From the NCBI GenBank assembly GCA_023653055.1, contig JAMNXR010000009.1, positions 1 to 64,000 on the forward strand: DNA of 64,000 bases. The letters run 5' to 3'. Made by a program: the position numbers and the translations under genes. Of the stretch, positions 23,578 through 41,593 are shown piece by piece (position 1 is the stretch's first letter; every line of letters starts with the position of its first letter). The stretch comes from Burkholderiaceae bacterium. GTDB taxonomy: Bacteria > Pseudomonadota > Gammaproteobacteria > Burkholderiales > Burkholderiaceae_B. The notes beneath the pieces are model-generated. The model ran no database searches. It had not been told where the DNA came from and worked only from the letters and a program-made list of their open reading frames with translations.

Positions 23578-26283
23578 TTACGCTGCGATCAACTGTCGTA
23601 ACACAAAGGGCAAAATCCCTCCGTGCTGGTAGTAATCTACTTCGATCGGAGTATCAATCCGCAATAACACCGCGACACGTTGGCTTGAACCATTTGGATG
23701 ATGAATGACCAGGGTGACGTCCTGTTGAGGCACGATGCCATTTTCAAGGCCTTCGACATCAAAGGTTTCGACCCCAGTCAGACCCAAGGACTCAGCGCTG
23801 TCATGCCCCTTAAACTGCAAAGGCAAGACACCCATACCGACCAAGTTGCTACGGTGAATGCGCTCAAAGCTCCGGGCAATGACGGCCTTGACCCCCAGTA
23901 GTTGAGTCCCTTTTGCAGCCCAGTCGCGCGAGGAACCCGTGCCATATTCCTCACCCCCGAACACCACAGTGGGGATGCCGCTGGCCACATATTGCATGGC
24001 GGCATCGTAAATCGATATTTGCTCGCCACTGGGTTGCAGCAACGTCTGTCCCCCTTCGACGCGTGAGCCATCTGGTCTGGCGGGAATCATGAGATTTTTG
24101 ATACGGACATTGGCAAACGTGCCGCGCATCATGATCTCGTGATTACCTCGGCGCGAGCCATAGCTATTGAAGTCAGCTTTTTGGACGCCATGCGCAAGCA
24201 ACCACTGACCGGCAGGAGAGTTTTCACTAATCGAACCCGCCGGTGAAATATGGTCAGTCGTGACCGAGTCGCCAAAAATACCCAAGGTACGTGCGCCTCT
24301 CACAGCAGGCATTGGCTTGGGTTCCATCGTAAAGTCATCAAAAAATGGTGGTTCGGCGATATAGGTTGAGCTTGGCCAGTTGTAAACATCCCCCGTGACC
24401 CCCTCAATGTTTTGCCAGAGCTTGCCTGGTTTTTTCTCGACCTTGGCATAGTTGTTGCGAAACACTTTAGGATCCATCGCAAACTTCATCAGCTTTTCAA
24501 CTTCTTGCGCACTCGGCCAGATATCGCCGAGGTAGACCGGTCCATGCTTACCCTCACCAACGGGTTCAGTCATCAAGTCACGCATCATGTTGCCGGCAAG
24601 CGCATAGGCGACGACTAGCGGAGGTGAGGCAAGAAAGTTTGCTTTCAAGTTGGGATGAATACGCGCTTCAAAGTTCCGGTTGCCTGACAGTACGGCTGCG
24701 CAGATAAGGTCGTTGTCGATGATGGCTTGGTTAAAGTCCGCAGCCAGATCGCCCGCATTACCAATACAGGTTGTGCAACCATAGGCTGCGACATCAAAAC
24801 CGAGCTGATCAAGATAAGGCAGCAGACCGGCTCGCTCCAGATATTCGGTGACGACACGCGAGCCTGGTGCGAGTGAGGTTTTGACATGTGCAGGCACTTT
24901 AAGACCGGCCTTTACCGCTTTTTTCGCGAGCAAACCGGCTGCTAACATCACGCTCGGGTTGGAGGTGTTGGTGCACGAGGTAATGCCTGCGATCAAAATG
25001 TCGCCGTTGTGCAGTGTTTTCCCAGTGGCTGTCGTAAAGGCTTTGCTGAGCTTAGCGGCAGGCTGATTAAAGCCATTATCCGCAATCGGTTTAGCGTAAA
25101 GCTTTTTAAAGGTTTTCTTTACCTCTCCGATTTCGATGCGATCCTGTGGTCGCTTCGGTCCAGCCAGTGAGGGGACAACCGAACTAAGATCCAGTTTCAC
25201 AACTTTGGTGAAGTCGATGTCGGCGGCATTGGGCACACCAAACATTTCCTGTGCCTTGAAATACGCCTCGAGAGCCTGGACTTCGTCTTTGGTGCGCCCG
25301 GTCCCATTGAAATAATCGATCGTGCGGTGATCGACAGGAAAAAATCCCATCGTGGCACCATACTCGGGTGCCATGTTGGCGATAGTGGCACGGTCTGTCA
25401 CCGAGAGTTTGGCTGTACCCGGACCACAAAACTCGACAAATTTGCCCACCACTTTTTCTTTGCGCAACAACTCAGTGATCGTGAGCACGAGGTCTGTTGC
25501 CGTGACGCCGCCTCGCAACTCCCCTGTGAGCTCGACACCGACCACGTCTGGGGTCAAAAAGTACACGGGCTGACCCAGCATGCCGGCTTCGGCTTCAATC
25601 CCGCCAACGCCCCAGCCTACAACGCCAATGCCATTAATCATTGTGGTGTGACTGTCGGTGCCCACGAGAGAGTCCGGGTAGTACACATCATGTTTTTTGT
25701 CGTGATGTACGCCGCGTGCGAGGTACTCAAGATTGATCTGATGCACAATACCAAAGCCTGGAGGCACCACGCCAAACGTATCAAATGCTTGCATGCCCCA
25801 TTTCAGAAACTGGTAGCGTTCTTTATTGCGCGAAAACTCAACTTTCATGTTGAGATCGAGAGCGTCCTTGGTCCCAAAATAATCAATCATGACCGAGTGA
25901 TCGACAACCAAGTCAACGGGTACCAAAGGCTCGATGGCTGTCGCGTCTTTTCCCATTTTCTGAGCAACGGCCCGCATGGCGGCGAGATCCGCCAGCAAGG
26001 GCACACCCGTAAAATCTTGGAGGACGACGCGCGCGACGACAAAGGGAATTTCAAGTTCGCGTTTAGTCTTGGGCTTCCAGGCCGCGAGCTCACGAATATG
26101 ACTTTCAGTCACTTTTTTACCGTCGCAGTTGCGCAGCACGGATTCCAACACAATCCGAATCGACATGGGCAGTCGAGAAACGTCGATGCCAAGAGACGCA
26201 CCGAGCGCCGGAAGCGAATAAAAGTGCGCTTCTTTTTTACCGATTTTGAATTTTTTAAGCGTGTTCAGGGTGTCATGTTTCAT
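23578..26283 (-). CDS. acnA: Aconitate hydratase A
   Basis: 901 residues, the usual length of AcnA/IRP-type aconitases. It interconverts citrate and isocitrate using a [4Fe-4S] cluster. Visible are '[32 protein letters not shown]', the first cluster Cys in '[22 protein letters not shown]', and the Cys pair in '[15 protein letters not shown]'. The C-terminal swivelling domain contains '[14 protein letters not shown]' and '[19 protein letters not shown]'. It follows acnB after a terminator and should have its own promoter; a TAGGAT -10-like box lies about 20 bases upstream of the start. It is one of three aconitase-family genes in this cluster. Confidence 0.95.
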
Positions 26284-26350
26284 GGCGGACGCTCCAAGAT
26301 GTTGATCTCTTTATCCTACACCAGCCGCACGTACTGCGCACAATAAAAAA

Positions 26351-26380
26351 ATCCTCCTGTGAAGATATCCACAGGAGGAT
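26351..26380 (-). terminator. acnB: Terminator of acnB
   Basis: An 11-bp stem, ATCCTCCTGTG (26351-26361) with CACAGGAGGAT (26370-26380), and an 8-base loop. On the minus strand it is followed by a run of T (26350-26345). It ends the acnB transcript before acnA. Confidence 0.88.
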
Positions 26381-26437
26381 TGAATGGCTTGGACTCATTT
26401 AAAAGGTATCCCAGCGCTATTTGCCGGGCGACCAGGT

Positions 26438-29017
26438 TTAAATGGCGTCGGCTACATCCTTGTAATCAGGGATCTGATCAAAATTGAGGTACTTGTAGAT
26501 CTGGGCGCTGCTGTCTTTGAGTACGCCCATGTCTGTCATGTACTCTTCTTTGGTTGGAATGCGACCGAGTTTTGAACAAATCGCGGCCAATTCGGCTGAG
26601 CCCAAATACACATTGGTATTTTTACCCAGACGATTCGGGAAGTTGCGTGTGCTCGTAGACATCACGGTCGCACCTTCGCGGACCTGTGCTTGGTTACCCA
26701 TGCACAATGAGCAGCCTGGTGGCTCCGTGCGCGCACCAGCCGAACCAAAGACGCCGTAGTGGCCTTCTTCAGTCAGCTGTGTCGCATCCATCTTAGTCGG
26801 GGGGGCAATCCAGAGTTTGACGGGCATATCGCGTTTGCCTTCGAGCAGCTTGGACGCGGCACGGAAGTGACCGATATTGGTCATGCAGCTGCCAATGAAC
26901 ACTTCGTCAATCTTGGTGCCAGAAACTTCTGACAACATTTTGACGTCATCAGGATCATTCGGGCAGGCCACGATGGGCTCGTGAATGTCAGCCAGGTCGA
27001 TTTCAATAACGGCAGCGTACTCGGCATCTGCATCAGGCTGGAGCAACTGTGGATTGGCCAACCAAGCTTCCATTGCCTGGATACGACGTGTGAGGCTGCG
27101 CTCGTCTTCGTAACCATTGGCAATCATCCACTTCAACATCACGATGTTGCTGTTGATGTATTCGATGATGGGTTCTTTGTTCAGACGAACAGTACAACCC
27201 GCAGCGGAACGCTCAGCTGACGCGTCTGACAATTCAAAGGCCTGTTCAGCTTTGAGGTTTGGCAAACCTTCGATTTCGAGGATACGGCCAGAGAAGATAT
27301 TGATCTTGTTTGACTTGTCCACGGTCATCAGGCCAGCTTTGATCGCGTACAAAGGAATTGCGCTGACCAGGTCACGCAAGGTGACGCCAGGTTGCATTGT
27401 GCCCTTGAAACGAACCAACACGGACTCAGGCATATCCAGAGGCATCACGCCCGTCGCAGCAGCAAACGCTACTAGACCAGAGCCAGCTGGGAAGCTGATA
27501 CCGATTGGGAAACGTGTGTGGGAGTCGCCGCCTGTACCCACCGTGTCGGGCAACAACATACGGTTGAGCCAGGAGTGAATCACGCCGTCACCGGGACGCA
27601 GCGAGATGCCGCCGCGGTTGCTCATAAACTCAGGTAGTGTGTGATGTGTTTTGACGTCAACAGGCTTTGGATAGGCCGAAGTGTGGCAAAACGATTGCAT
27701 CACGAGGTCAGCAGAAAAGCCCAAGCAGGCGAGATCTTTCAATTCGTCACGTGTCATGGGGCCCGTAGTATCCTGGCTACCCACGGAAGTCATCTTGGGC
27801 TCACAGTAGGCACCAGGACGAACGCCTTGGCCTTCAGGCAAGCCACATGCACGACCCACCATTTTCTGTGCCAAGGTAAAGCCTTTGGTAGAGGCGGCAG
27901 GATTTTGTGGCAGGCGGAACAAGGTCGATGGGGGCAAACCGAGCGCTTCGCGTGCTTTGCCTGTCAGACCGCGACCGACGATCAAAGGAATGCGTCCGCC
28001 GGCACGGACTTCGTCAAACAAGACATCCGACTTAACTTGAAACTTTGCGATGACCTTGCCGTCTTTCAATGCTTCGCCGTCATAAGGACGCAATTCGATC
28101 TCATCGCCCATGTTCATGTTGGAGACATCGAGTTCGATTGGGAGCGCGCCAGCATCTTCCATCGTGTTGTAGAAAATCGGGGCGATTTTGTTGCCCAGAC
28201 AGACGCCACCAAAGCGCTTGTTTGGCACAAAAGGAATGTCTTCGCCTGTAAACCACAACACGGAGTTTGTCGCGGATTTGCGCGAAGAGCCTGTGCCGAC
28301 CACATCACCGACGTAAGCAACGAGGTTGCCTTTTTTCTTGAGGTCATTGATGAACTTAACAGGTCCAGTCTTGCCGGGTTCTTGTGGCTCGATACCTGGA
28401 CGTGGGTTTTTCAACATCGCCAAAGCATGCAAAGGAATGTCAGGACGGCTCCATGCATCCGGGGCAGGAGACAGATCGTCCGTATTGGATTCGCCCGTCA
28501 CTTTCAAGACAGTAATCTTGAGACTCTTGGGGACTTCGGGGCGGCTGGTAAACCACTCGCCGTCTGCCCAGCTTTGCATCACAGCTTTAGCGTTGGCATT
28601 GCCTTTCGCAGCTTTTTCTTTCACGTCGTGAAAGGCGTCGAACATCAGCAAAGTCTTTTTGAGGCCGTCTGCAGCGATCGTGCCGACTTCTTTGTCGTCC
28701 AGCAGCTCAACCAACGGTCCAATGTTGTAACCCCCCAGCATCGTACCCAACAACTCTGTGGCTTTAGCGCGCGAAATCAGCGGGCATTTTTCTGAACCTA
28801 ACGCGACGGCTGCCAGGTAAGACGCTTTGACTTTGGCCGCATCATCCACACCCGCTGGCACGCGATGCGTGATCAGCTCAAGGAGTGCATCGCCTTCGCC
28901 TGCTGGAGGTGCTTTGAGCAGTTCGATGAGGTCAGCCGTTTGCTGAGCTGAAAGAGGAAGGGGAGGAATACCAAGGGTTGCGCGTTCGGCAACGTGTTGG
29001 CGATAGGCTTGTAGCAT
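26438..29017 (-). CDS. acnB: Bifunctional aconitate hydratase B / 2-methylisocitrate dehydratase
   Basis: 859 residues with the AcnB layout, in which the swivelling domain comes before the catalytic domains. The N-terminal HEAT-like domain starts '[35 protein letters not shown]'. The cluster ligands are in '[22 protein letters not shown]' and '[16 protein letters not shown]'. AcnB serves the TCA cycle and can also hydrate cis-2-methylaconitate to 2-methylisocitrate, so it links to the prp genes upstream. A near-consensus promoter with an abutting 21-bp palindrome precedes it, suggesting regulation with mdh by the local GntR protein. Confidence 0.96.
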
Positions 29018-29051: not shown

Positions 29052-29080
29052 ATTGTAGAGCGAAGATCGGGGTGTCGCAA
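29052..29080 (-). promoter_or_regulatory. acnB: Predicted sigma-70 promoter of acnB
   Basis: On the minus strand, TTGCGA (29080-29075) and TACAAT (29057-29052) are separated by 17 bases. This is a good match to the consensus and lies 35 bases from the acnB start. The palindromic element begins 2 bases upstream of the -35 box. Confidence 0.65.
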
Positions 29081-29082
29081 GT

Positions 29083-29103
29083 GTCTTATATCTTATATAA
29101 GAC
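29083..29103. promoter_or_regulatory. 21-bp palindromic operator upstream of acnB (copy 1)
   Basis: GTCTTATA-N5-TATAAGAC, perfect 8-bp arms. The arms overlap a second perfect palindrome, TCTTATATAAGA (29091-29102). Twenty of 21 bases recur at 37013-37033 between mdh and the GntR gene. At both sites it lies exactly 2 bases upstream of the predicted -35 hexamer and in the same orientation. Confidence 0.7.
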
Positions 29104-29120
29104 ATGAAAATAAGTAAGTC

Positions 29121-29393
29121 TTAACTGACAAGTGAAGCGTAAATGGGGTGTTTCTGGATATAGGCAGCTACATAGCTGCATTGAGGGATAACCCCCCAGC
29201 CTTTTGATTGCGCATGGTCTAGGGCAAACTTGGTGATTTCAGCAGCCAGACCACGTCCCCCAAGCTCGCTTGGAACGCCCGTATGGGTGATGGTCATCAC
29301 ATTGTTATTTAAGGTGTAGTCGAGCACACAGCGATGACCTTCAAGCCTGAGTTCAAAGCATTTTCCTGTGACATTGTGTTCAATCGTGCTCAT
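29121..29393 (-). CDS. Small GNAT-like acetyltransferase (YjdJ type)
   Basis: 90 residues starting at ATG 29393, one codon after a TTG. The motif 'ITHTGVPSELGGRGLAAEITKFALDHAQSKGWGVIPQCSYVAAYIQKHP' is the short GNAT fold of the Acetyltransf_CG group, with the acetyl-CoA loop at 'GGRGLA' and the conserved 'CSYV...YIQKHP' ending. The substrate is unknown; the wider family includes N-acetyltransferases of uncertain function. It starts 3 bases after the preceding membrane protein gene and lies upstream of the acnB promoter, probably at the end of the prp transcript. Confidence 0.8.
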   Translation of the reverse strand: MSTIEHNVTGKCFELRLEGHRCVLDYTLNNNVMTITHTGVPSELGGRGLAAEITKFALDHAQSKGWGVIPQCSYVAAYIQKHPIYASLVS

Positions 29394-29396
29394 CAA

Positions 29397-29786
29397 TTAA
29401 GACCCTATGATCAAAAGCGCCCAAAGTCCCAACATTGCGACAATTCCCACTGCGCAGCTACCCCACAGGCCCACAATGGGCCAGCGAACACTCATCGGTA
29501 GGTTCACGGGATCAACGTGCGACAACAAACTGTTCGCGTTGCTGGCAAACGAGGCGGTCGATTTGTGAAAAATGATTCGTAAAAAGTAGTCCAGCGTAAT
29601 CGTCAATCGAATGCTGATGGGTAGATCTCCGAATCTACGTTCCTTCAGATAGGGATGTTTAAAGCGCGCATTGACTTCGTTGATTTTAAAAAACCACAAG
29701 TACGCGCCTGAAATGAAAAATACAAAGGAGCATGTGACGAAAAACGTAAAAGTTAGAACGAGTGCGTGAGAAAAATATTGTTGCAT
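29397..29786 (-). CDS. Small membrane protein of unknown function
   Basis: 129 residues with an N-terminal membrane helix (about 8-33, ALVLTFTFFVTCSFVFFISG) and another near the C-terminus (about 104-127, PIVGLWGSCAVGIVAMLGLWALLI). A basic middle loop separates them ('YLKERRFGDLPISIRLTITLDYFLRIIFHK'). No family was recognised. It lies 36 bases after prpF and 3 bases before the GNAT gene, so it is probably on the prp transcript. Whether it contributes to propionate metabolism is unknown. Confidence 0.7.
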   Translation of the reverse strand: MQQYFSHALVLTFTFFVTCSFVFFISGAYLWFFKINEVNARFKHPYLKERRFGDLPISIRLTITLDYFLRIIFHKSTASFASNANSLLSHVDPVNLPMSVRWPIVGLWGSCAVGIVAMLGLWALLIIGS

Positions 29787-29822
29787 AGTGCCTACTTGAT
29801 TGTTGATACGTGTTCGCTCGGT

Positions 29823-31004
29823 TTAACCCGGAATGCGAACCCATCCTTCCATAAGAACACGGGCACTGCGACTCATCATGGCTTTTTTGACTTGCCATTC
29901 TCCATCCACTTTATCAGCCTGTGCACCCACTCGCAGCGTGCCTGATGGATGTCCAAAACGAACCGCGTCCAAGTTACCGCCCCCCGCAGCGAGATTCACA
30001 AGCGTGCCAGGAATCGCCGCTGCAGTACCAATGGCAACAGCCGCTGTGCCCATCATGGCGTGGTGGAGTTTACCCATCGACAACGCGCGGACCAGCACAT
30101 TGACATCCGATGCTGAGATCGCTTTGCCACTCGACGCAATGTAATCAGCAGGGTTGGCAACGAATGCGACCTTGGGAGTGTGTTGACGTTTAGCCGCCTC
30201 ATCGAGATGACTGATGAGGCCCATACGCACGGCGCCATGGGCACGGATTTTTTCAAACATTTCCAGCGCTTTTGGATCGCTATTGATATCGTCTTGAAGC
30301 TCGGTCCCTTTGTAACCTACGGCTTCCGCATTAATAAAAATTGTAGGAATGCCGGCATTGATCATGGTGGCTTTGAGTGTGCCCACTCCAGGCACAACCA
30401 GATCGTCCACGATATTGCCTGTGGGGAACATTGCGCCACCACCGCCTTCCTCTTCGGCTGCGGGGTCCATAAACTCTAGCTGTACTTCAGCGGCAGGAAA
30501 CGTCACGCCATCGAGTTCGAAATCTCCCGTCTCCTGCACAGCACCGTCTGTCATCTGGACGTGAGAAATAATGGTTTTACCAATGTTCGCTTGCCAGATC
30601 CGGACAGTTGCGATGCCATTTTTTGGAATACGACCCGGGTCAACTAAGCCATTGCTAATGCTAAAGGGGCCCACAGCAGCAGATAGGTTGCCACAATTGC
30701 CACTCCAGTCGATGAAGGGCTTGTCGATGGAGACTTGGCCAAACAAGTAGTCCACGTCATGATCTGGACGCGTACTTTTAGCCAGGATGACCGTTTTACT
30801 GGTACTTGAGGTCGCGGCGCCCATGCCATCGGTTTGTTTGCCGTAGGGGTCCGGGCTGCCGATGACGCGCATGAGTAAGGCGTCGCGCGCGGCACCCGGT
30901 ACCTGAGTGGCGGGTGGCATATCCTGCAAGCGAAAGAAAACGCCTTTGCTGGTACCGCCACGCATATAGGTGGCAGGAACTTTAATTTGAGGTGCGTGCG
31001 CCAT
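29823..31004 (-). CDS. prpF: 2-methylaconitate isomerase PrpF
   Basis: 393 residues starting 'MAHAPQIKVPATYMRGGTSKGVFF', the PrpF signature with the conserved 'RGGTSKG'. Further family segments are 'DWSGNCGNLSAAVGPFSI' and 'HHAMMGTAAVAIGTAAAIPGT'. The protein has two diaminopimelate-epimerase-like halves. PrpF isomerises the 2-methylaconitate made by AcnD into the cis form that AcnB can hydrate, so AcnD plus PrpF together replace PrpD. It lies 72 bases after acnD in the same operon. Confidence 0.95.
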   Translation of the reverse strand: MAHAPQIKVPATYMRGGTSKGVFFRLQDMPPATQVPGAARDALLMRVIGSPDPYGKQTDGMGAATSSTSKTVILAKSTRPDHDVDYLFGQVSIDKPFIDWSGNCGNLSAAVGPFSISNGLVDPGRIPKNGIATVRIWQANIGKTIISHVQMTDGAVQETGDFELDGVTFPAAEVQLEFMDPAAEEEGGGGAMFPTGNIVDDLVVPGVGTLKATMINAGIPTIFINAEAVGYKGTELQDDINSDPKALEMFEKIRAHGAVRMGLISHLDEAAKRQHTPKVAFVANPADYIASSGKAISASDVNVLVRALSMGKLHHAMMGTAAVAIGTAAAIPGTLVNLAAGGGNLDAVRFGHPSGTLRVGAQADKVDGEWQVKKAMMSRSARVLMEGWVRIPG

Positions 31005-31076
31005 TTGAACGTTTCCTAAAGTAAATAACTCTCAGCGGAGCGTGGCAGAGCCCTTTGTGAGGGCCCGCTTGTGTCG

Positions 31077-33671
31077 TTATGCCGCGGCTGTTGATTCCAG
31101 GAAGTCTTGGGCGAAACGCTGCAAGACTCCACCGGCCTCGTAAATAGAGACCTCTTCCGCCGTATCGAGACGACATGTCATCGGTACCTCGAGCCTTTCA
31201 CCGTTTTTACGTGTGATGACCAAGGTTAAGGTTGCCAATGGTGTCGGTTTACCCAGCACGTCGTAGATCTCCGTTCCGTCGAGCTGCAATGTCTTGCGGT
31301 CGACGCCAGCTTTAAACTCAAGCGGTAACACGCCCATGCCTACCAAGTTGGTGCGATGGATGCGCTCGAAGCCCTCGGCCGCAATGGCTTCAACGCCTGC
31401 AAGGCGAACCCCTTTGGCTGCCCAGTCGCGCGAGGAGCCCTGACCATAGTCCGCACCTGCCACGATGATCAATGGCTGTTTGCGCTCCATATAGGTCTCG
31501 ATCGCTTCCCACATACGTGTGACCTTGCCCTCTGGCTCGATGCGGGCCAGTGATCCCTGCTTGACCTTGCCGTTTTCCAACACCATTTCGTTAAGCAGCT
31601 TGGGGTTGGCAAACGTCGCGCGCTGCGCAGTCAGATGGTCACCGCGATGGGTCGCGTAAGAGTTGAAATCCTCTTCGGGCAAGCCCATTTTTTCCAGATA
31701 TTCGCCAGCCGCGCTATCGAGCATGATGGCATTCGAAGGCGACAAGTGATCCGTCGTGATGTTGTCACCCAGCACCGCCAGAGGACGCATCCCTTTTAGT
31801 TCACGCGCACCCGCGAGCGCGCCTTCCCAGTAGGGTGGACGACGGATGTAGGTGCTTTGAGGACGCCAGTTATAGAGTGGGCTGAGCTTCTCACCTGTGT
31901 CTACTGACACGGCGAACATCGGTTCGTATACCTTGCGGAACTGTTCGGGCTTGACGCTGGCTTTGACGATGGCATCAATTTCTTCGTCAGTAGGCCAGAT
32001 GTCCTTGAGCATGACGGGTTTGCCATGCTGATCGATCCCCAGCACATCACGCTCAATGTCAAAGCGGATCGTGCCTGCGATCGCATAGGCCACCACTAAA
32101 GGAGGAGAAGCGAGAAAGGCTTGTTTGGCATAGGGGTGAATACGACCGTCAAAGTTACGGTTGCCAGATAACACTGCCGTGGCATACAAATCGCGATCAA
32201 TGATTTCCTGTTGAATCACAGGATCTAGCGCACCGCTCATGCCGTTACAGGTTGTGCAGGCAAAGGCCACGATACCAAAGCCAAGCTTTTCGAGTTCAGG
32301 CAACAATTTTGCGTCATCAAGGTAAAGCTCAACAGTTTTTGATCCAGGTGCGAGAGAGCTCTTGACCCAAGGTTTGCGGGTCAGTCCTCGCGCGTTAGCA
32401 TTGCGCGCCAGCAAGCCCGCTGCAATCACGTTGCGTGGATTGCTCGTATTGGTGCAGCTCGTAATCGCCGCAATAATCACAGCACCATCAGGCATCAGAC
32501 CAGGTTCATTCTCTACCTTGCCGGAAATGCCCTTTGCAGCGAGATCAGTCGTGGCGACACGACGATGCGGATTGGAAGGGCCTGCGATATTTCTGACGAC
32601 CGAGGACAAGTCAAAATGCAAGACGCGCTCATACTCAGCGGTCTTGAGGCTATCAGCCCATAGGCCTGCTTGCTTGGCATAGGTCTCAACAAGTTTGACT
32701 TGCTCGGCCTCACGACCTGTCAAGGTCAGATAGTCGATCGTTTGCTGATCGATATAAAACATAGCCGCTGTTGCACCGTACTCTGGTGTCATGTTTGAAA
32801 TCGTTGCACGGTCACCGAGTGTCAGGTGCGCCGCACCTTCGCCGAAAAACTCCAGATAGGACGACACCACTTTTTGACTACGCAAATACTCTGTGAGTGC
32901 CAACACTAGATCGGTGGCGGTGATGCCAGGCTGTAATTTGCCGGTTAGTTCCACGCCAATAATGTCCGGCAGTCTCATCCAAGAAGCGCGACCGAGCATC
33001 ACGCTCTCGGCTTCAAGGCCGCCCACGCCAATCGCGATCACGCCAAGCGCGTCCACGTGTGGCGTGTGACTGTCTGTGCCAACCAAGGTATCCGGAAACG
33101 CGACACCCTCTTGGGCGTGCACAACAGGCGACATGCGCTCCAGATTGATCTGATGCATGATGCCGTTTCCGGGAGGAATTACATCAACGTTTTTGAAGGT
33201 CTTTTTTGTCCAGTTAATAAAATGGAAGCGATCTTCGTTACGTCGATCTTCGATGGCACGATTTTTTTCAAACGCATCCGGATCAAAACCGCCACACTCG
33301 ACGGCCAAGGAGTGATCGACAATCAACTGAGTCGGCACCACCGGATTGACGAGTGCGGGATCTCCGCCTTGTGCTGCGATCGCATCCCTCAGACCTGCCA
33401 GATCCACCAGCGCAGTTTGCCCGAGAATGTCATGACAAACCACTCTGGCTGGAAACCAGGGAAAATCCAGGTCGCGTTTGCGTTCGATGATTTGAGTCAA
33501 CGAAGCGACAAGTGTCGCAGGCTCGCAACGACGCACCAAATTTTCAGCCAACACACGCGAGGTGTAAGGCAACTTGTCATACGCCCCAGGCTTGATGGCA
33601 TCGATCGCCGCGCGGGTATCGAAGTAATCAAGCTTGGTGCCTGGAAGAGGTTTGCGATTCGCAGTGTTCAT
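31077..33671 (-). CDS. acnD: Fe/S-dependent 2-methylcitrate dehydratase AcnD
   Basis: 864 residues, aconitase family. Features: 'GTDSHTPHVDALGVIAIGVGGLEAESVMLGRASWMRLP', cluster Cys residues in '[21 protein letters not shown]' and 'FACTTCNGMSGALD', and the C-terminal '[47 protein letters not shown]'. The 'CTTCNGMSGALDP' segment and the neighbouring prpF separate it from AcnA. It dehydrates 2-methylcitrate in propionate catabolism. It starts 14 bases after prpC, so prpB-prpC-acnD-prpF is one operon. Confidence 0.95.
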   Translation of the reverse strand: MNTANRKPLPGTKLDYFDTRAAIDAIKPGAYDKLPYTSRVLAENLVRRCEPATLVASLTQIIERKRDLDFPWFPARVVCHDILGQTALVDLAGLRDAIAAQGGDPALVNPVVPTQLIVDHSLAVECGGFDPDAFEKNRAIEDRRNEDRFHFINWTKKTFKNVDVIPPGNGIMHQINLERMSPVVHAQEGVAFPDTLVGTDSHTPHVDALGVIAIGVGGLEAESVMLGRASWMRLPDIIGVELTGKLQPGITATDLVLALTEYLRSQKVVSSYLEFFGEGAAHLTLGDRATISNMTPEYGATAAMFYIDQQTIDYLTLTGREAEQVKLVETYAKQAGLWADSLKTAEYERVLHFDLSSVVRNIAGPSNPHRRVATTDLAAKGISGKVENEPGLMPDGAVIIAAITSCTNTSNPRNVIAAGLLARNANARGLTRKPWVKSSLAPGSKTVELYLDDAKLLPELEKLGFGIVAFACTTCNGMSGALDPVIQQEIIDRDLYATAVLSGNRNFDGRIHPYAKQAFLASPPLVVAYAIAGTIRFDIERDVLGIDQHGKPVMLKDIWPTDEEIDAIVKASVKPEQFRKVYEPMFAVSVDTGEKLSPLYNWRPQSTYIRRPPYWEGALAGARELKGMRPLAVLGDNITTDHLSPSNAIMLDSAAGEYLEKMGLPEEDFNSYATHRGDHLTAQRATFANPKLLNEMVLENGKVKQGSLARIEPEGKVTRMWEAIETYMERKQPLIIVAGADYGQGSSRDWAAKGVRLAGVEAIAAEGFERIHRTNLVGMGVLPLEFKAGVDRKTLQLDGTEIYDVLGKPTPLATLTLVITRKNGERLEVPMTCRLDTAEEVSIYEAGGVLQRFAQDFLESTAAA

Positions 33672-33685
33672 ATTCTTGATGCTAA

Positions 33686-34885
33686 TTAACGGCGTTTGGC
33701 GAGAGGAACGAATTTCTGATCATCAGGGCCGGTGTAGTTGGCTGCGGGACGAATGATCTTGTTGTCGATCCGTTGCTCAATGATGTGTGCAGACCAGCCT
33801 GCCGTGCGTGCGATCACGAACAGAGGTGTAAACATTGCTGTGGGTACGCCCATCATGTGATACGACACTGCGGAAAACCAGTCGAGATTGGCGAACATTT
33901 TTTTCGCATCCCACATCACAGCCTCAAGACGATCGGCGATGTCGTACATCTTTGTGGTGCCGGCTTTCTTTGACAGACGCAAGGCTACATCTTTAATCAC
34001 CTTGTTACGTGGATCAGAGATCGTGTACACAGGATGACCAAAGCCGATGATGACTTCTTTGTTTTCAACGCGCGCACGAATATCCGCTTCGGCTTCGTTC
34101 GGGGTCTCGTAGCGTTTTTGAACTTCAAAGGCCACTTCGTTGGCGCCGCCGTGCTTGGGGCCGCGCAGCGCGCCGATGCCGCCAGCAATCGCAGAGTACA
34201 TGTCAGAGCCTGTGCCCGCAATGACGCGGCAGGTAAAGGTCGAGGCATTGAACTCATGCTCTGCGTACAAAATCAGTGAGGTGTGCATGGCACGGACCCA
34301 GTCTGCATTGGGTTTCTTGCCGTGTAACAGATGCAGGAAGTGGCCGCCGATCGAGTCGTCATCTGTTTGTACGTCGATGATGCGACCGTTGTGGCTAAAG
34401 TGATACCAGTAGAGCAGGGCAGAACCGAGGTTCGCCATGAGGCGGTCAGCAATGTCACGTGCATCAGGTGTATTGTGGTCTTCTTTTTCTGGCAGGATGC
34501 AACCCAGTGCCGAGGCGGCGGTCCGCATCACGTCCATGGGGTGACTGGCGGCAGGCAGCGATTCCAGAACCGTTTGCAGCTGGGCGGGCAGACCGCGCAA
34601 CGCGCGCAACTTTTCTTTATACGCGGTCAACTCAGCCTTGTTAGGCAGTTTGCCGTGAATCAGCAGGTGAGCGATTTCCTCGAACTCGCTAGTATCTGCG
34701 AAATCAAGAATGTCATACCCGCGATAGTGCAAGTCGTTACCGCTGCGACCGACGGTACACAGAGCAGTGTTACCTGCCGTCACACCTGACAATGCGACAG
34801 ATTTTTTTGGTTTAAAGACAGGTGCTGCAGTCTCGACAGCTTTTGCTGGAGCGGCGCGTTTCACCGTTTTTTTGGTTGTGGCCAT
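33686..34885 (-). CDS. prpC: 2-methylcitrate synthase PrpC
   Basis: 399 residues. It condenses propionyl-CoA with oxaloacetate. The citrate-synthase core contains '[22 protein letters not shown]', catalytic His in '[24 protein letters not shown]' and '[18 protein letters not shown]', and ends '[21 protein letters not shown]', typical of PrpC. The first about 35 residues are a Lys/Ala-rich extension ([20 protein letters not shown]...) not usual for the family and of unknown role. It lies 18 bases after prpB and 14 before acnD. Confidence 0.95.
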
Positions 34886-34903
34886 ATTGATTTCCTTGAT
34901 AAA

Positions 34904-35797
34904 TTATTTGGATTTGCCTTGGGCAAACAGTACGTCGAGTTTGCCTTCGAATTCATGATAGTTGATGCGGTCGTAGAGTTCATCACGCGTTTGCATGAGG
35001 TCAATGACGTTGCGCTGGTGGCCGTCGCGGCGGATGGCGGTATACACCGTCTCTGCCGCTTTGTTCATGGCTCGGAAAGCAGACAGCGGATAGAGCACCA
35101 TGCCCACACCTGAGCTGCGCAACTCTTCGACTGAAAAAAGTGGGGTTTGACCAAATTCAGTAATGTTTGCGAGCAAGGGTACGTTGACGGCTTTGGAAAA
35201 CTTTTCAAACGTGGCGAGGTCGTAGGCGGCTTCGGCAAAAATCGCATCTGCACCCGCCTCAACGCATGCCATCGCACGCTCAATCGCAGCATCGACGCCG
35301 TGTGAGGCAATCGCATCGGTACGCGCGATCAGGTAAAAGCTGTCATCGGTACGGGCATCCGCCGCGGCTTTGACGCGGTCGCGCATCTCTTCTGTTGAAA
35401 CGATTTCTTTGCCAGGGCGATGGCCGCAACGCTTGGCGCCGACTTGGTCTTCAATGTGACAGCCGGCCGCGCCGAACTTGCTCAAACTTTGAATGGTCCG
35501 CGCAATGTTAAAGGCCGAGGGACCAAAACCTGTGTCGATGTCGACGATCAAAGGTGTGTCACAGACATCGGTGATACGACGCACATCAGTCAGTACGTCA
35601 TCAAGCGTGTTGATACCTAGGTCAGGCAAACCTAAAGAACCTGCTGCCACGCCGCCACCGGAGAGGTAGATGGCCTTAAAGCCGGCGCGCTTGGCAAGCA
35701 GAGCGTGGTTAGCGTTAATGGCGCCGATAATTTGCAAAGGCTTTTCGGCTGCGAGTGCTTCGCGAAACCGTTGACCAGCGGGGGCTTGTTTGGACAT
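34904..35797 (-). CDS. prpB: 2-methylisocitrate lyase PrpB
   Basis: 297 residues, isocitrate-lyase/PEP-mutase family. It cleaves 2-methylisocitrate to pyruvate and succinate. Visible are '[22 protein letters not shown]', Mg-binding '[18 protein letters not shown]', and the lid motif with the catalytic Cys, '[13 protein letters not shown]'. The ATG at 35797 ([11 protein letters not shown]) is chosen; the longer reading starts in the mdh terminator. It is the first gene of the prp operon, 51 bases from that terminator. The leader contains TGATCT three times and a half copy of the GntR-region palindrome. Confidence 0.96.
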
Positions 35798-35833
35798 CTT
35801 GATCTCCGTGACAAATATTGATCTTTTGAAAAA

Positions 35834-35843
35834 TGATCTTATA
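35834..35843. promoter_or_regulatory. Half-site resembling the mdh/acnB operator, upstream of prpB
   Basis: TGATCTTATA at 35834-35843 matches one arm of the 21-bp element (TCTTATA) but has no second arm, and it touches the mdh terminator stem. It could be a weak site for the same regulator or a chance match in an AT-rich leader. Confidence 0.25.
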
Positions 35844-35847
35844 AAAA

Positions 35848-35870
35848 AATGGGCCCTTGTGGGGCCCATT
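35848..35870 (-). terminator. mdh: Terminator of mdh
   Basis: AATGGGCCC (35848-35856) and GGGCCCATT (35862-35870) with a 5-base loop, followed on the minus strand by TTTTTTAT. It ends 11 bases after the mdh stop and separates mdh from the prp operon. Confidence 0.88.
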
Positions 35871-35880
35871 AACTCGGTGC

Positions 35881-36870
35881 TTACTTGAGCAAATGAGCGA
35901 CTGCGTCGCGCTCTTCTGTGAGTTCTTTAAGCGTCAGATCCATACGCTCACGCGAGAATGCATCCACCTCAAGCCCTGTTACGCGGTGATATTCGCCGCC
36001 TTCGCAGGTGACGGGTACGCCGTACATGATGCCTTCGGGGATACCGTAGGTACCATCGGAAGGCACGCCCATCGTGACCCACTTGCCATTTGTGCCCAGT
36101 ACCCAATCACGCACGTGATCGATAGCAGCATTTGCGGCTGAAGCGGCGGAAGACAAGCCACGCGCTTCAATGATGGCCGCGCCACGCTTACCAACTGTTG
36201 GCAAGAACACGTCGCGGTTCCATGCGGCATCGTTGATCAGCTTTTCCACGCTCTGTCCGCCAATGGTGGCGAAACGGTAGTCTGCATACATGGTGGGTGA
36301 GTGGTTGCCCCACACTGCCAGCTTTTGGATGTCTGCAACAGGCTTGCCCATTTTTGAAGCCAACTGTGACAACGCACGGTTGTGATCCAGACGAAGCATG
36401 GCGGTAAAGTTTTTCGCTGGCAGGCTTGGCGCAGATTTCATTGCGATATAAGCGTTGGTGTTAGCAGGGTTGCCGACTACCAACACTTTGACGTTACGGT
36501 TTGCCACTGCGTTCAGCGCTTTACCTTGAGCGGTAAAAATGGCGGCATTCACAGCCAGCAGGTCTGCACGTTCCATGCCGGGGCCGCGGGGACGCGAACC
36601 GACCAGTAAGGCAACCTCGACGTCTTTGAAGGCTTCGAGTGGGTCACTGTGTGCAGTCATGGACTGCAACAAAGGAAATGCGCAATCATCGAGCTCCATC
36701 ATCACGCCCTTAAGCGCTTTTTGAGCTTTTTCGTCCGGAATTTCCAGCAGTTGCAAAATAACAGGCTGGTCTTTGCCAAGCATTTCACCTGAAGCGATGC
36801 GGAACAATAGGGCGTAACCGATCTGGCCTGCTGCACCAGTAACCGCAACACGCATGGCGGGTTTGGACAT
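35881..36870 (-). CDS. mdh: Malate dehydrogenase
   Basis: 329 residues, NAD-dependent, oxidising malate to oxaloacetate. Features: Rossmann motif '[25 protein letters not shown]', substrate Arg loop '[16 protein letters not shown]', '[13 protein letters not shown]', and catalytic His in '[16 protein letters not shown]'. The length and sequence match the group of cytosolic-type bacterial MDHs found in betaproteobacteria. It is divergent from the GntR gene. Its predicted promoter (TTGACG-18-TAGCAT) is preceded by the 21-bp palindrome, as at acnB. It stands alone before a terminator. Confidence 0.97.
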
Positions 36871-36980
36871 AACGATCTCCGATAGAACTGAGAGGATTGT
36901 GAGAAAAGATAACTAAAGAGTTTAGCTTTTTTGTGGCACGTCTTTTTAAAGAGGTGATGCACAAGAAAATCAGCCTTCAA

Positions 36981-37010
36981 ATGCTAATGCAAATACAGTC
37001 GTTTCGTCAA
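36981..37010 (-). promoter_or_regulatory. mdh: Predicted sigma-70 promoter of mdh
   Basis: On the minus strand, TTGACG (37010-37005) and TAGCAT (36986-36981) with an 18-base spacer, about 110 bases upstream of the mdh start. The operator-like element begins 2 bases upstream of the -35 box, the same spacing as at acnB. Confidence 0.5.
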
Positions 37011-37012
37011 CG

Positions 37013-37033
37013 ATCTTATATCTTATATAAGAC
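37013..37033. promoter_or_regulatory. 21-bp palindromic operator between mdh and the GntR gene (copy 2)
   Basis: ATCTTATA-N5-TATAAGAC, differing from the acnB copy only in the first base. It lies in the mdh/GntR divergent region, 67 bases before the GntR start, so it could control both directions. It contains the perfect 12-bp palindrome TCTTATATAAGA. Size and symmetry suit a GntR-family dimer, and the neighbouring GntR protein is the natural candidate. Confidence 0.7.
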
Positions 37034-37099
37034 ACAAGAGTGATGGACTTTCGACTAGGGTTATGCCACAATGTTGAATGATTTTTAAAAGCCATTCTG

Positions 37100-37870: not shown

Positions 37871-37960
37871 TTGACTTTTTTTATCGTTTTGCATGCAGTC
37901 TCACCATGAGTGAAAATAGCGTGTTTTCTCTTGTTTAACTGTTCTATGTTCGAGGTCGTT

Positions 37961-38371
37961 ATGTCTGACTCAGCTAACAAGCCGCGTCCTCAGTTCCGTA
38001 ACATTAATGTTATAGATTTGATGAAGTATCGCTTGCCGATGGCCGGTAAAGTTTCCATTCTTCATCGCGTGAGTGGAGCGTTACTCTTTTTGTGTCTGCC
38101 ACTCTTAATTGCATTGTTTGCAATGAGTTTCGTGAGCCAATCTGGGTTCAATGCAATGGCAATGGTCATTGGCCACCCCATCGTTAAGTTGATTCTTTTG
38201 GTCCTGATCTGGGGTTACTTGCATCACTTCTGTGCGGGTATTCGTTACTTGATCCTTGACCTGCATATCGGTTTGGACAAAGAATCTGCCGCGAAGAGCG
38301 CAAGTCTTGTCATGGGCGTGAGCTTGGCGCTTACTTTTGTCTTTGGTCTCAAATTATTCGGAGTGTGGTGA
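37961..38371 (+). CDS. sdhC: Succinate dehydrogenase cytochrome b556 subunit
   Basis: 136 residues with three membrane helices and the SdhC motif 'MAGKVSILHRVSGALLFLCLPLLIALF' (residues about 27-53), which contributes to quinone and haem binding. The haem-ligand His is probably in 'GYLHHFCAGIRYLILDLHIG'. The start is ATG at 37961, preceded by GAGG at a suitable distance; longer readings at 37910 or 37946 are less likely. A TTGACT box at 37871-37876 may belong to its promoter. It overlaps sdhD by one base (TGATG). Confidence 0.93.
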   Translation: MSDSANKPRPQFRNINVIDLMKYRLPMAGKVSILHRVSGALLFLCLPLLIALFAMSFVSQSGFNAMAMVIGHPIVKLILLVLIWGYLHHFCAGIRYLILDLHIGLDKESAAKSASLVMGVSLALTFVFGLKLFGVW

Positions 38372-38754
38372 TGGTTCCCGTCGAAAAAATCGGTCCCAAG
38401 CGTCTGGTAGTTGGCGCACACTACGGCACTGGCGAGTACATCGCTCAACGTGTCACGGCCATTATTCTTGCTGTCTACACGCTTGTACTGTTGGTCGGTA
38501 TCCTCACGATGCCTGGCTTTACGTATGAAGGTTGGAAAAATCTCTTCACGTTCACCGTGTTGTTCATGCCGTTAGGACAAATCCTCGCTTCGCTCGCAAT
38601 GTTTTCGCTTGCCTGGCATGCCTGGATTGGTGTGCGCGACATTTGGATGGACTATATCAAGCCCGTAGGCCTTCGCCTTTTTTTGCTGGTGTTGACAATT
38701 TTGTGGTTAGTTGGATCGGTCGTGTACTTTGTACACATCCTTTGGAGAAATTAA
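38371..38754 (+). CDS. sdhD: Succinate dehydrogenase membrane anchor subunit
   Basis: 127 residues with three transmembrane helices: 'VTAIILAVYTLVLLVGILTMPGF', 'FTFTVLFMPLGQILASLAMFSLAWHAWIGVRDIWMDYI' and 'LRLFLLVLTILWLVGSVVYFVHIL'. The 'AWHAWIGVRDIWMDYIKP' segment is the SdhD signature with the haem-ligand His. Together with SdhC it anchors SdhAB and forms the ubiquinone site. The ATG at 38371 overlaps the sdhC stop. Confidence 0.93.
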   Translation: MVPVEKIGPKRLVVGAHYGTGEYIAQRVTAIILAVYTLVLLVGILTMPGFTYEGWKNLFTFTVLFMPLGQILASLAMFSLAWHAWIGVRDIWMDYIKPVGLRLFLLVLTILWLVGSVVYFVHILWRN

Positions 38755-38757
38755 GCC

Positions 38758-40536
38758 GTGGCATCAGTCAAATCAAATTTACCGCGCCGTCAATTTGACG
38801 TCGTGGTCGTGGGTGCCGGCGGAGCCGGTATGCGTTGCTCGCTTCAACTCGCAAATGCGGGCTTGTCCGTTGCAGTGCTTTCAAAGGTCTTTCCAACACG
38901 CTCGCACACCGTTGCGGCGCAAGGTGGTATTGGTGCCTCTTTAGGCAACATGAGCGAAGACAATTGGTACTGGCACATGTACGACACCGTTAAGGGTTCG
39001 GATTGGCTGGGTGACCAAGATGCAATCGAATTCATGTGTCGCGAAGCACCCAATGCTGTGTATGAGCTCGAGCATATGGGTATGCCTTTTGACCGTAATC
39101 CTGACGGCACGATTTATCAGCGTCCGTTCGGTGGTCACACCGCCAATTTTGGTGAAAAGCCCGTCCAGCGTGCCTGTGCCGCTGCCGACCGTACAGGCCA
39201 TGCGCTTTTGCACACGCTCTATCAGCGTAACGTTGCTTCACGCACACAGTTTTTCGTAGAGTGGCTGGCGCTTGATCTTATCCGTAACGATGCTGGCGAC
39301 GTGTTAGGCGTCACTGCGCTCGAAATGGAAACGGGTGAGATTTACATATTTGAAGCCAAGACAACGGTGATTGCAACCGGCGGTGCAGGGCGTATTTGGG
39401 CGGCATCGACCAACGCCTTCATCAATACGGGTGACGGAATGGGTATGTGCGCTCGTGCGGGCATTCCCATGATGGATATGGAATTTTGGCAGTTTCACCC
39501 CACGGGCGTAGCCGGTGCGGGAGTGCTGATTACTGAAGGTGTGCGCGGAGAGGGCGGTATCCTCCTCAACAAGGATGGCGAGCGCTTCATGGAGCGTTAT
39601 GCCCCAACCTTGAAAGACTTGGCTCCGCGCGATTTTATCTCGCGTTGTATGGACCAGGAAATTAAAGAAGGTCGTGGCTGTGGACCGGACGGTGCTTACG
39701 TGCATCTCAAGCTCGACCACCTCGGCGCCGATGTGATCAACAAGCGCTTGCCTTCGATTCTAGAAATCGGACATAAGTTTGCCAACGTTGATGCCACTAA
39801 AGAGCCAATTCCTGTTGTCCCAACTATCCATTATCAGATGGGCGGCATACCTTGTAACTACAATGGTCAGGTCACCACGTGGGACGGCAAACAGGCAAAT
39901 ATTGTCAATGGCCTTTATGCGATCGGCGAGTGCTCGGCGACTTCTGTGCACGGTGCGAACCGCTTGGGAACCAACTCCTTGTTGGATCTGATCGTGTTTG
40001 GTCGTGCAGCAGGCAACCACATTGTTGCGGCACACCCTGAGCGTCAGCATGCTCACCAGCCATTGCCACAAGAGTCGGTGGACTTTTCACTTGATCGGGT
40101 TAACAAACTCGAGCAGCGTAAAACGGGTGAAAAAGCACAAGTCGTGGGTAATGAAATTCGCAATGCCATGCAACAGCACTGTGGCGTGTTCCGCACGATG
40201 GCTTCTCTCAAAGAAGGCGTGGCAAAGATCGATGCTTTGGCCGAGAAAGTCGATAACATCGCTTTCCAGGACAAGTCCAAGGTCTTTAATACTGCACGGA
40301 TTGAGGCGCTCGAACTGAGCAACATGATCGAAGTGGCACGTTCGACGATTCACTCAGCGGCAGCACGCACGGAAAGTCGTGGTGCGCACGCGTTGGATGA
40401 TTTCCCGACACGTGATGATGACAATTGGATCAAACACACGCTGTGGTATTCGGAAGGCAATCGCCTCGATTACAAGCCTGTGCAGATGCAGCCACTCACA
40501 GTCGAAAGCTTCCCGCCCAAGACCCGTACATTCTAA
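38758..40536 (+). CDS. sdhA: Succinate dehydrogenase flavoprotein subunit
   Basis: 592 residues. It oxidises succinate to fumarate with covalently bound FAD. Visible are the dinucleotide motif 'FDVVVVGAGGAGMRCSLQLANAG', the flavinylated His50 in 'PTRSHTVAAQGGIGASLGN', the active-site segment 'EFWQFHPTGVAGAGVLITEGVRGEGG', and 'GECSATSVHGANRLGTNSLLDLIVFGRAAG'. The start is GTG at 38758, 3 bases after sdhD. Length and motifs are fully typical. FAD attachment is helped by SdhE, encoded two genes downstream. Confidence 0.97.
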   Translation: MASVKSNLPRRQFDVVVVGAGGAGMRCSLQLANAGLSVAVLSKVFPTRSHTVAAQGGIGASLGNMSEDNWYWHMYDTVKGSDWLGDQDAIEFMCREAPNAVYELEHMGMPFDRNPDGTIYQRPFGGHTANFGEKPVQRACAAADRTGHALLHTLYQRNVASRTQFFVEWLALDLIRNDAGDVLGVTALEMETGEIYIFEAKTTVIATGGAGRIWAASTNAFINTGDGMGMCARAGIPMMDMEFWQFHPTGVAGAGVLITEGVRGEGGILLNKDGERFMERYAPTLKDLAPRDFISRCMDQEIKEGRGCGPDGAYVHLKLDHLGADVINKRLPSILEIGHKFANVDATKEPIPVVPTIHYQMGGIPCNYNGQVTTWDGKQANIVNGLYAIGECSATSVHGANRLGTNSLLDLIVFGRAAGNHIVAAHPERQHAHQPLPQESVDFSLDRVNKLEQRKTGEKAQVVGNEIRNAMQQHCGVFRTMASLKEGVAKIDALAEKVDNIAFQDKSKVFNTARIEALELSNMIEVARSTIHSAAARTESRGAHALDDFPTRDDDNWIKHTLWYSEGNRLDYKPVQMQPLTVESFPPKTRTF

Positions 40537-40558
40537 GTCAGGATATCTGGAATAAATC

Positions 40559-41275
40559 ATGAGCAAAAAACGCATCGTGAAGTTTGAAATTTACCGCTAC
40601 GATCCTGACAAGGATGAGCGTCCATACATGCAAAAACTCGAAGTTGAGTTGCAGCCTACTGACAAGATGTTGCTGGATGCGTTGATCCGCATCAAGATGG
40701 ATGTCGATGACAGCTTGGCACTTCGCCGTTCATGCCGCGAAGGCGTGTGTGGCTCAGATGCAATGAACATCAATGGTAAAAACGGACTGGCCTGCACAAC
40801 CAACATGCTCGAGCTCAAAGAGCCTGTGGTCTTGCGCCCACTTCCAGGTCTGCCAGTGATTCGCGATCTGATCGTCGACATGACGCAATTCTTTAACCAA
40901 TACCACTCTATTCGTCCGTATTTGATCAACGACACGCCACCGCCCGAAAAAGAGCGCTTGCAGTCGCCTGAGGCGCGCGAAGAGCTGGATGGTTTGTACG
41001 AGTGTATTTTGTGCGCCTGTTGCTCGACCTCGTGCCCATCATTTTGGTGGAATCCCGACAAGTTCGTGGGTCCTGCAGGATTGTTACAAGCGTATCGTTT
41101 TATTGCAGATACCCGCGATCATGCCACGGCTGAGCGTCTCGATAACCTCGAAGACCCATACCGCTTGTTCCGTTGCCACACAATCATGAATTGTGTGGAC
41201 GTGTGTCCAAAAGGTCTAAACCCATCGCGCGCGATAGGTAAGATTAAAGAAATGCTTGTGCGTCGTACGGTTTAA
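40559..41275 (+). CDS. sdhB: Succinate dehydrogenase iron-sulfur subunit
   Basis: 238 residues carrying three clusters: the [2Fe-2S] site in 'SCREGVCGSDAMNINGKNGLAC', the [4Fe-4S] site in 'CILCACCSTSCPSFWW', and the [3Fe-4S] site in 'CHTIMNCVDVCPKGLNP'. It passes electrons from SdhA to quinone. It begins 22 bases after sdhA and precedes sdhE by 12 bases. Confidence 0.97.
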   Translation: MSKKRIVKFEIYRYDPDKDERPYMQKLEVELQPTDKMLLDALIRIKMDVDDSLALRRSCREGVCGSDAMNINGKNGLACTTNMLELKEPVVLRPLPGLPVIRDLIVDMTQFFNQYHSIRPYLINDTPPPEKERLQSPEAREELDGLYECILCACCSTSCPSFWWNPDKFVGPAGLLQAYRFIADTRDHATAERLDNLEDPYRLFRCHTIMNCVDVCPKGLNPSRAIGKIKEMLVRRTV

Positions 41276-41287
41276 CAAAGAGCTCAA

Positions 41288-41548
41288 ATGGGAACGATAT
41301 CAGATCAGGATCGGATTAGGTTACGTTGGCGTGCTAGACGCGGCCTACTGGAAAATGATCTGATTCTTACCCAGTACCTCGATACCTATCAAGCAGATTT
41401 GACAGACGTCGAAGTCGGCGCGTTGACTCAGCTGTTTGAAATCTCAGATAACGAGCTGTTAGACTTACTTTTAGGTCGTGTTGAGCCCGAGGGGGCGCTT
41501 GACCGACCCGCAGTCAAGATGGTGCTTGCGCAGATACGCGCGGCATAG
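41288..41548 (+). CDS. sdhE: Succinate dehydrogenase assembly factor 2 (FAD assembly)
   Basis: 86 residues with the family motif 'RARRGLLENDLILTQYLDTY', which includes the conserved RGxxE needed for FAD attachment to SdhA. The ending '...LTQLFEISDNELLDLLLGRVEP' is also typical. It sits between sdhB and gltA as in many proteobacteria, giving a full sdhCDAB-sdhE unit. Confidence 0.93.
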   Translation: MGTISDQDRIRLRWRARRGLLENDLILTQYLDTYQADLTDVEVGALTQLFEISDNELLDLLLGRVEPEGALDRPAVKMVLAQIRAA

Positions 41549-41593
41549 ACAGCATTTTGCCTTGCTAACCAAATATAAACGAAGGAATTACGT

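Follow-up and report, generated by a model that had tools for sequence, protein, structure and literature searches.

Two near-identical 21-bp repeats lie upstream of acnB and mdh in a 64,000-nucleotide stretch of DNA from a Burkholderiaceae bacterium (GCA_023653055.1, contig JAMNXR010000009.1, positions 1 to 64,000; the window). They are most probably operators for SdhR, a HutC-type GntR protein encoded alongside, which would control its targets jointly, and we give this reading a probability of roughly 0.88. The figure covers the identity of SdhR and its operators and the joint control, not the sign of that control. The predicted targets are mdh-prpB-prpC-acnD-prpF, acnB, and sdhR together with the downstream sdhCDAB. 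The regulatory system itself is not new and had already been predicted in kind; the window is a clean instance of it.

The repeated element and the published SdhR motif

The repeats read GTCTTATATCTTATATAAGAC (29083-29103) and ATCTTATATCTTATATAAGAC (37013-37033). A scan of the window allowing up to 3 mismatches returned these two copies only, with 0.02 matches expected, and none of 100 shuffled sequences reached two. In the host genome (2.84 Mb, 30 contigs, 95% complete) exact 21-mer matches were confined to the two window copies. Seven more forward matches were obtained, two of them overlapping the known sites and five lying elsewhere at 3 mismatches; a reversed control pattern gave four. The 14-bp core occurred with at most 1 mismatch only at the two window sites, and at 3 mismatches it was no commoner than the control (41 versus 100). 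The scans of window and genome thus confirmed two copies that differ in one base at the positions given in the original prediction. The best additional core match, the sole one with 2 mismatches (C26:66440), lies inside an open reading frame (ORF) and was rejected as a third operator.

The palindrome first described within the 21-mer, formed by one outer and one core box, is present in both copies (outer pairs 8/8 and 7/8), but the conserved element is 26 bp long and has another axis. It is built around the dyad TCTTATATAAGA, centred at 29096.5 and 37026.5, with outer boxes spaced 7 bp. Among 50 distinct 26-mers from relatives (symmetrised), the information content per position was 1.80-1.87 bits in the central TCTTATATAAGA against 0.61-1.00 in the outer boxes, and because of this difference the central dyad was taken as the conserved axis.

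Excerpts of PMC4494728 describe the motif of SdhR (GntR family, HutC subfamily) as a 'palindrome with additional symmetry', TCTTATGTCTTATATAAGACATAAGA, and credit it to Suvorova, Ravcheev and Gelfand 2012 (malonate and propionate catabolism). The acnB site was identical to this 26-mer at 23 of 26 positions and the mdh-sdhR site at 24 of 26, and the consensus of the 50 relative 26-mers equalled the published motif, with A or G at position 7. The neighbouring GntR gene had been called uncharacterised, but its motif is already in print, according to these excerpts, and the gene is very probably sdhR. The GT-N4-AC core of HutC operators is absent from the window sites, where the core is TCTTATATAAGA. 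This does not exclude HutC membership, since the excerpts ascribe GT-N4-AC to 'most' HutC sites and name SdhR as an exception. The window and the published SdhR share the 26-bp palindrome with additional symmetry, a GntR + UTRA protein and a gene beside sdhCDAB and mdh; nothing differs in kind, and the acnB box arrays and the spacing to the -35 were measured here. In a limited search of the open-licence literature, PMC4494728 was the only paper seen to print the SdhR motif, and no experimental study of SdhR was found.

Conservation of the sites and their association with sdhR

Conservation was assessed in the best 80 loci around SdhR relatives from a scan of named genomes. This set contains many close relatives (14 Caballeronia, 11 Undibacterium), and the nearest named species belong to the genus Zwartia. 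A site was counted if its core had at most 1 mismatch and the whole 26-mer at most 8. Such a site separated mdh from sdhR in 78 of 79 loci; in L129 the divergon site is present and mdh lies beyond the contig edge. Upstream of acnB a site was present in all 24 loci whose contig covers the start of acnB and 150 bp or more. Further sites in the 1,267,427 bases of the locus set were none but the L129 divergon. In a sample of 61 family genomes, 51 of the 54 with acnB carried the site upstream of it. Two of the loci (L057, L067) come from metagenome bins titled Bordetella parapertussis, with SdhR 77% and 70% identical to that of the window; they rank among Zwartia- and Sheuella-like loci, and their labels look doubtful.

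The sites are AT-rich and adjoin promoters, as chance matches, members of a repeat family or AT-rich promoter DNA with no dedicated protein might. Such an origin is extremely improbable in view of the 0.02 matches expected in the window, the presence of only two in the genome, the recurrence at the same places in these relatives and the roughly 1.8 bits per core position. On the counts and the conservation, a chance repeat or repeat family was rejected.

At E 1e-30, sdhR was detected in 137 of 151 family genomes. A survey of the order covered 300 genomes (motif at up to 3 mismatches, sdhR at E ≤1e-60) and found the motif in 140 and sdhR in 120; both were present in 102, neither in 142, sdhR only in 18 and the motif only in 38 (Fisher p 4e-29, ignoring kinship among the 300 genomes). 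In genus g153, two genomes without sdhR (G317, G348) gave background matrix scores at acnB (-16.0, -5.9) and mdh (-3.1, -6.9), and four genomes with sdhR (G375, G397, G416, G433) scored 18.8-34.8 at acnB and 10.0-29.3 at mdh. The maximum of 1200 shuffled scores, obtained from acnB regions of 350 bp, was 10.6 and the 99th percentile 1.8; the mdh regions scored were 700 bp long. The matrix was trained on the locus-set sites, and the scores of close relatives are therefore not independent of it.

The 38 motif-only genomes would also fit a different transcription factor binding the motif, with the GntR gene merely a conserved neighbour, and binding of SdhR to the motif is a prediction from sequence. 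However, all five of these genomes that were examined have a diverged GntR-UTRA gene, below the threshold, between mdh and sdhC; the sites were lost together with sdhR in the two congeneric genomes; and the motif was independently assigned to SdhR in the excerpts of PMC4494728. A different factor is accordingly improbable. Comparison of genomes thus supports SdhR through the identity and placement of the motif, its conservation and its co-occurrence and co-loss with the gene, and these last three tie both sites to the neighbouring GntR regulator, as had been proposed.

Several observations weigh against this assignment. Locus L079 kept sdhR and mdh with a weak match only (matrix score 10.4). 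Of the three genomes lacking the acnB site, G317 and G348 have no sdhR, but G326 retains it. The motif at up to 3 mismatches was missing from 18 of the 120 sdhR genomes, 7 of them from family f29. The mdh score of G433 (10.0) is below the top shuffled score, relatedness was left out of the co-occurrence test, and the loss of sdhR and sites in G317 and G348 may be a single event. The original prediction had named absence of the motif at mdh and acnB despite a retained GntR gene as evidence against it; apart from G326, L079 and the 18 genomes, this was not what the relatives showed overall.

Promoter geometry and direction of control

The promoter boxes first predicted for acnB and mdh were found as described, 2 bp from the 21-mers. 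Promoter calls alone were near shuffle expectation (2 versus 1.4; 1 versus 0.6), yet relatives conserve their distance from the site. Of 74 distinct mdh sequences, 64 had the best sigma-70-like -35 starting 1-6 nt past the 26-mer (shuffles, 0-6 nt: 17%) and 2 had it starting ahead of the end of the 26-mer (shuffles: 34%). At acnB the -35 stood exactly 3 nt past the 26-mer in 15 of 23 distinct sequences. Placement just upstream of the -35, noted in the original prediction, is conserved across genera, and the second site is indeed shared with the upstream region of the regulator itself. On that side the pattern was variable and weak, with the -35 at 0-6 nt in 26 of 75 sequences and mostly at 10-11, 15-16 or 23 nt in the rest.

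None of the 51 family acnB operators had fewer than three boxes (5 of 6 letters). Counted as outer boxes (upstream, downstream), the types were (0,1) in 30, (1,1) in 10, (1,0) in 7, (0,2) in 3 and (0,3) in 1. The last ATAAGA box stood 3 nt from TTG in 40 of the 51, across all box types; the core dyad therefore moves in 7-bp steps, and the last box stays by the -35. The last box may be functionally anchored, or units may simply come and go within the array; related genomes share such events. The 7-bp box arrays at acnB and the mostly fixed spacing of the last box to the -35 are possibly new. In L186, L190, L201 and L208 the acnB operators carry 2-3 downstream ATAAGA boxes at 7-bp spacing, which extend the palindrome into an array. 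Poorer outer boxes were noted by eye in L230-L232, three of the four g153 acnB sites, which had been scored separately.

We propose that SdhR would act as a local regulator of tricarboxylic acid (TCA) cycle and methylcitrate genes in Burkholderiales. A dimer would most likely occupy the central TCTTAT/ATAAGA dyad, with additional subunits bound to the 7-bp boxes on either side. The operator in the divergon would serve mdh-prpB-prpC-acnD-prpF in one direction and sdhR with sdhCDAB in the other, and the second operator would serve acnB. The sdhCDAB genes may be reached by read-through from sdhR; in relatives the sdhR-sdhC gap has a separate promoter-like element (by eye) and no SdhR site. From the UTRA domain a small effector is expected that would switch SdhR, presumably an intermediate of the TCA or methylcitrate pathway. 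Direct binding of SdhR, the operon structure and the direction of control are all predictions. Coordination of mdh and acnB, as first suggested, is retained, but the predicted set is larger and includes the prp genes, acnD, sdhR and sdhCDAB.

Activation of mdh and acnB, the direction first proposed, is plausible from the placement and is slightly favoured over repression because the operator abuts the -35 without overlapping it. SdhR bound to the same sites could instead be a repressor that hinders RNA polymerase at mdh, acnB and sdhR until the effector releases it. HutC-subfamily regulators are mostly repressors, and this precedent, with the variable mdh spacing, makes repression a serious alternative. 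The operator nevertheless overlaps the predicted mdh -35 in just 2 of the 74 sequences, and at acnB a weak -35 (TTGC..) with the last box 3 nt away in 40 of 51 operators is a layout usual for activation. Activation in turn has to contend with the 1-6 nt range at mdh and with five of the 23 distinct acnB sequences, in which the best promoter call begins before the end of the 26-mer; two of these are three-box sites in a shifted position (L075, L087), and the other three lack a credible promoter. Spacing range and overlaps are not as a strict class II activator would predict. At aceA, moreover, four relatives (L151, L152, L155, L156) carry a second core 29-30 bp downstream (start to start), near a -10-like sequence (by eye), and these double cores look repression-like.

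A dual role for SdhR is a more tentative suggestion. A subunit array would form on 7-bp ATAAGAY boxes, its last subunit activating mdh and acnB, and in other lineages the second core near the -10 at aceA would repress. The last-bound subunit would abut the -35 however far the core had slid (0, 7, 14 or 21 bp). If this is true, SdhR would direct carbon into the TCA cycle at the expense of the glyoxylate shunt, and its operators would evolve by gain and loss of 7-bp units.

Gene context, further sites and related regulators

The features of the window are collected in Table 1. The names of acnA and gltA were taken only from translations and blast matches in relatives; gltA follows sdhB on the plus strand. 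From the mdh-prp and sdhR-sdh-gltA gene orders, the second site sits between TCA and methylcitrate blocks.

Table 1. Genes, predicted operators and predicted promoters of the SdhR region (window coordinates)
Feature	Position	Strand	Remarks
SdhR operator of acnB, 26 bp (predicted)	29084..29109	.	faces minus-strand acnB; core TCTTATATAAGA at 29091-29102
SdhR operator in mdh-sdhR divergon, 26 bp (predicted)	37014..37039	.	core TCTTATATAAGA at 37021-37032
sdhR (very probably), GntR + UTRA (HutC-type) regulator, 256 aa	37100..37870	+	PF00392 E 6.1e-19, PF07702 E 1.5e-30
acnB promoter (predicted)	29052..29080	-	TTGCGA-17-TACAAT; 2 bp from 21-mer
mdh promoter (predicted)	36981..37010	-	TTGACG-18-TAGCAT; 2 bp from 21-mer
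sdhR promoter (possible)	37044..37072	+	TGGACT-17-CACAAT; weak, not scanner-called; offset 4 commonest among relatives (20/75 distinct)
mdh, malate dehydrogenase	35881..36870	-	heads apparent operon
prpB, prpC, acnD, prpF	29823..35869	-	behind mdh; gaps 11, 18, 14, 72 bp
acnB, acnA	23578..29017	-	acnB 26438-29017, then acnA 23578-26283 after 154 bp
sdhC, sdhD, sdhA, sdhB	37910..41275	+	behind sdhR

PDB entry 3cnv_A, a chain titled 'Putative GntR-family transcriptional regulator' that has no DNA-binding domain, matched residues 96-256 of SdhR (E 5e-60) and probably represents the effector domain of an orthologous protein. Several family genomes also encode a second GntR protein, a paralogue with about 40% identity to SdhR (for example G328:C1:622617-623321 and G098:C1:1545817-1546518).

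The gene order is well kept: mdh and sdhR were divergent neighbours in 79/79 loci holding both, sdhC followed sdhR in 75/75 loci with both (80 loci fetched), and prpB abutted mdh in 23 of the 31 loci holding both. A separate prp operator was rejected for the loci seen, as prpB abuts mdh and there was no site elsewhere in the 80 loci; a site of its own precedes acnD in one other genome (L148), which limits the result to those loci. No site was found directly before sdhC in the 80 loci. By eye, a promoter-like element precedes sdhC in the window (37887-37917) and in many of the 19 sdhR-sdhC gaps shown from relatives, as a TTTGAT-like sequence, about 17-18 nt and then GCGAAAAT or GTGAAAAT. In L069, L098 and L126 an inverted repeat, ATTTGAT...CAAAT, overlaps this element (by eye) and possibly belongs to a second regulator of sdh. 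The sdhB-gltA gap (41276-41593) seems, by eye, to contain a short sdhE-like ORF. A 129-aa ORF (29397-29786, minus strand) between prpF and the acnB-side site gave no Pfam or NCBIfam match; homologues with 39-93% identity lie near acnB or prp in the relatives shown.

Sites at other genes were sought in 40 stretches, 39 around motif matches, among the matches listed, plus the weak match in the own genome. The 39 were picked by motif and say nothing about frequency. Of the 39, 9 were at mdh-sdhR, 11 at acnB, 3 at acnA (L139, L140, L146), 1 at acnD (L148), 7 at isocitrate-lyase family genes (L132, L135, L151, L152, L155, L156, L160), 3 at isocitrate dehydrogenase genes (L136, L158, L161) and 1 at an acetyl/propionyl-CoA-synthetase-like gene (L163, from Pfam); in 4 stretches (L134, L150, L157, L159) no queried gene lay downstream. 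Site-to-start-codon distances at icd and aceA were not used, as the query ORFs seem N-terminally extended.

The operator of DasR and YvoA (NagR) consists of two adjacent inverted half-sites, and we know of no outer-box array for either protein. These members of the HutC subfamily, whose structures have been solved, are related to SdhR over most of the protein (4zs8_A, 2wv0_A), but their targets are N-acetylglucosamine genes (excerpts of PMC4494728). PdhR and PsrA, whose regulons were extended to TCA genes in Shewanellaceae, are likewise local metabolic regulators over sdh, gltA and other TCA genes (excerpts of PMC5343134). They are other proteins in another lineage and are likened to SdhR by role, not by motif.

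With this assignment an unexplained palindrome becomes a named, testable regulon. Its regulator is widespread in Burkholderiales and has sites at mdh, acnB and sdhR, to which some relatives add others at acnA, acnD, icd and aceA. The effector domain of SdhR probably has a solved orthologue (3cnv). The 7-bp arrays, with their mostly fixed distance to the -35, offer a natural series for the interplay between a HutC-type regulator and RNA polymerase, and SdhR itself likely sets the levels of TCA-cycle enzymes.

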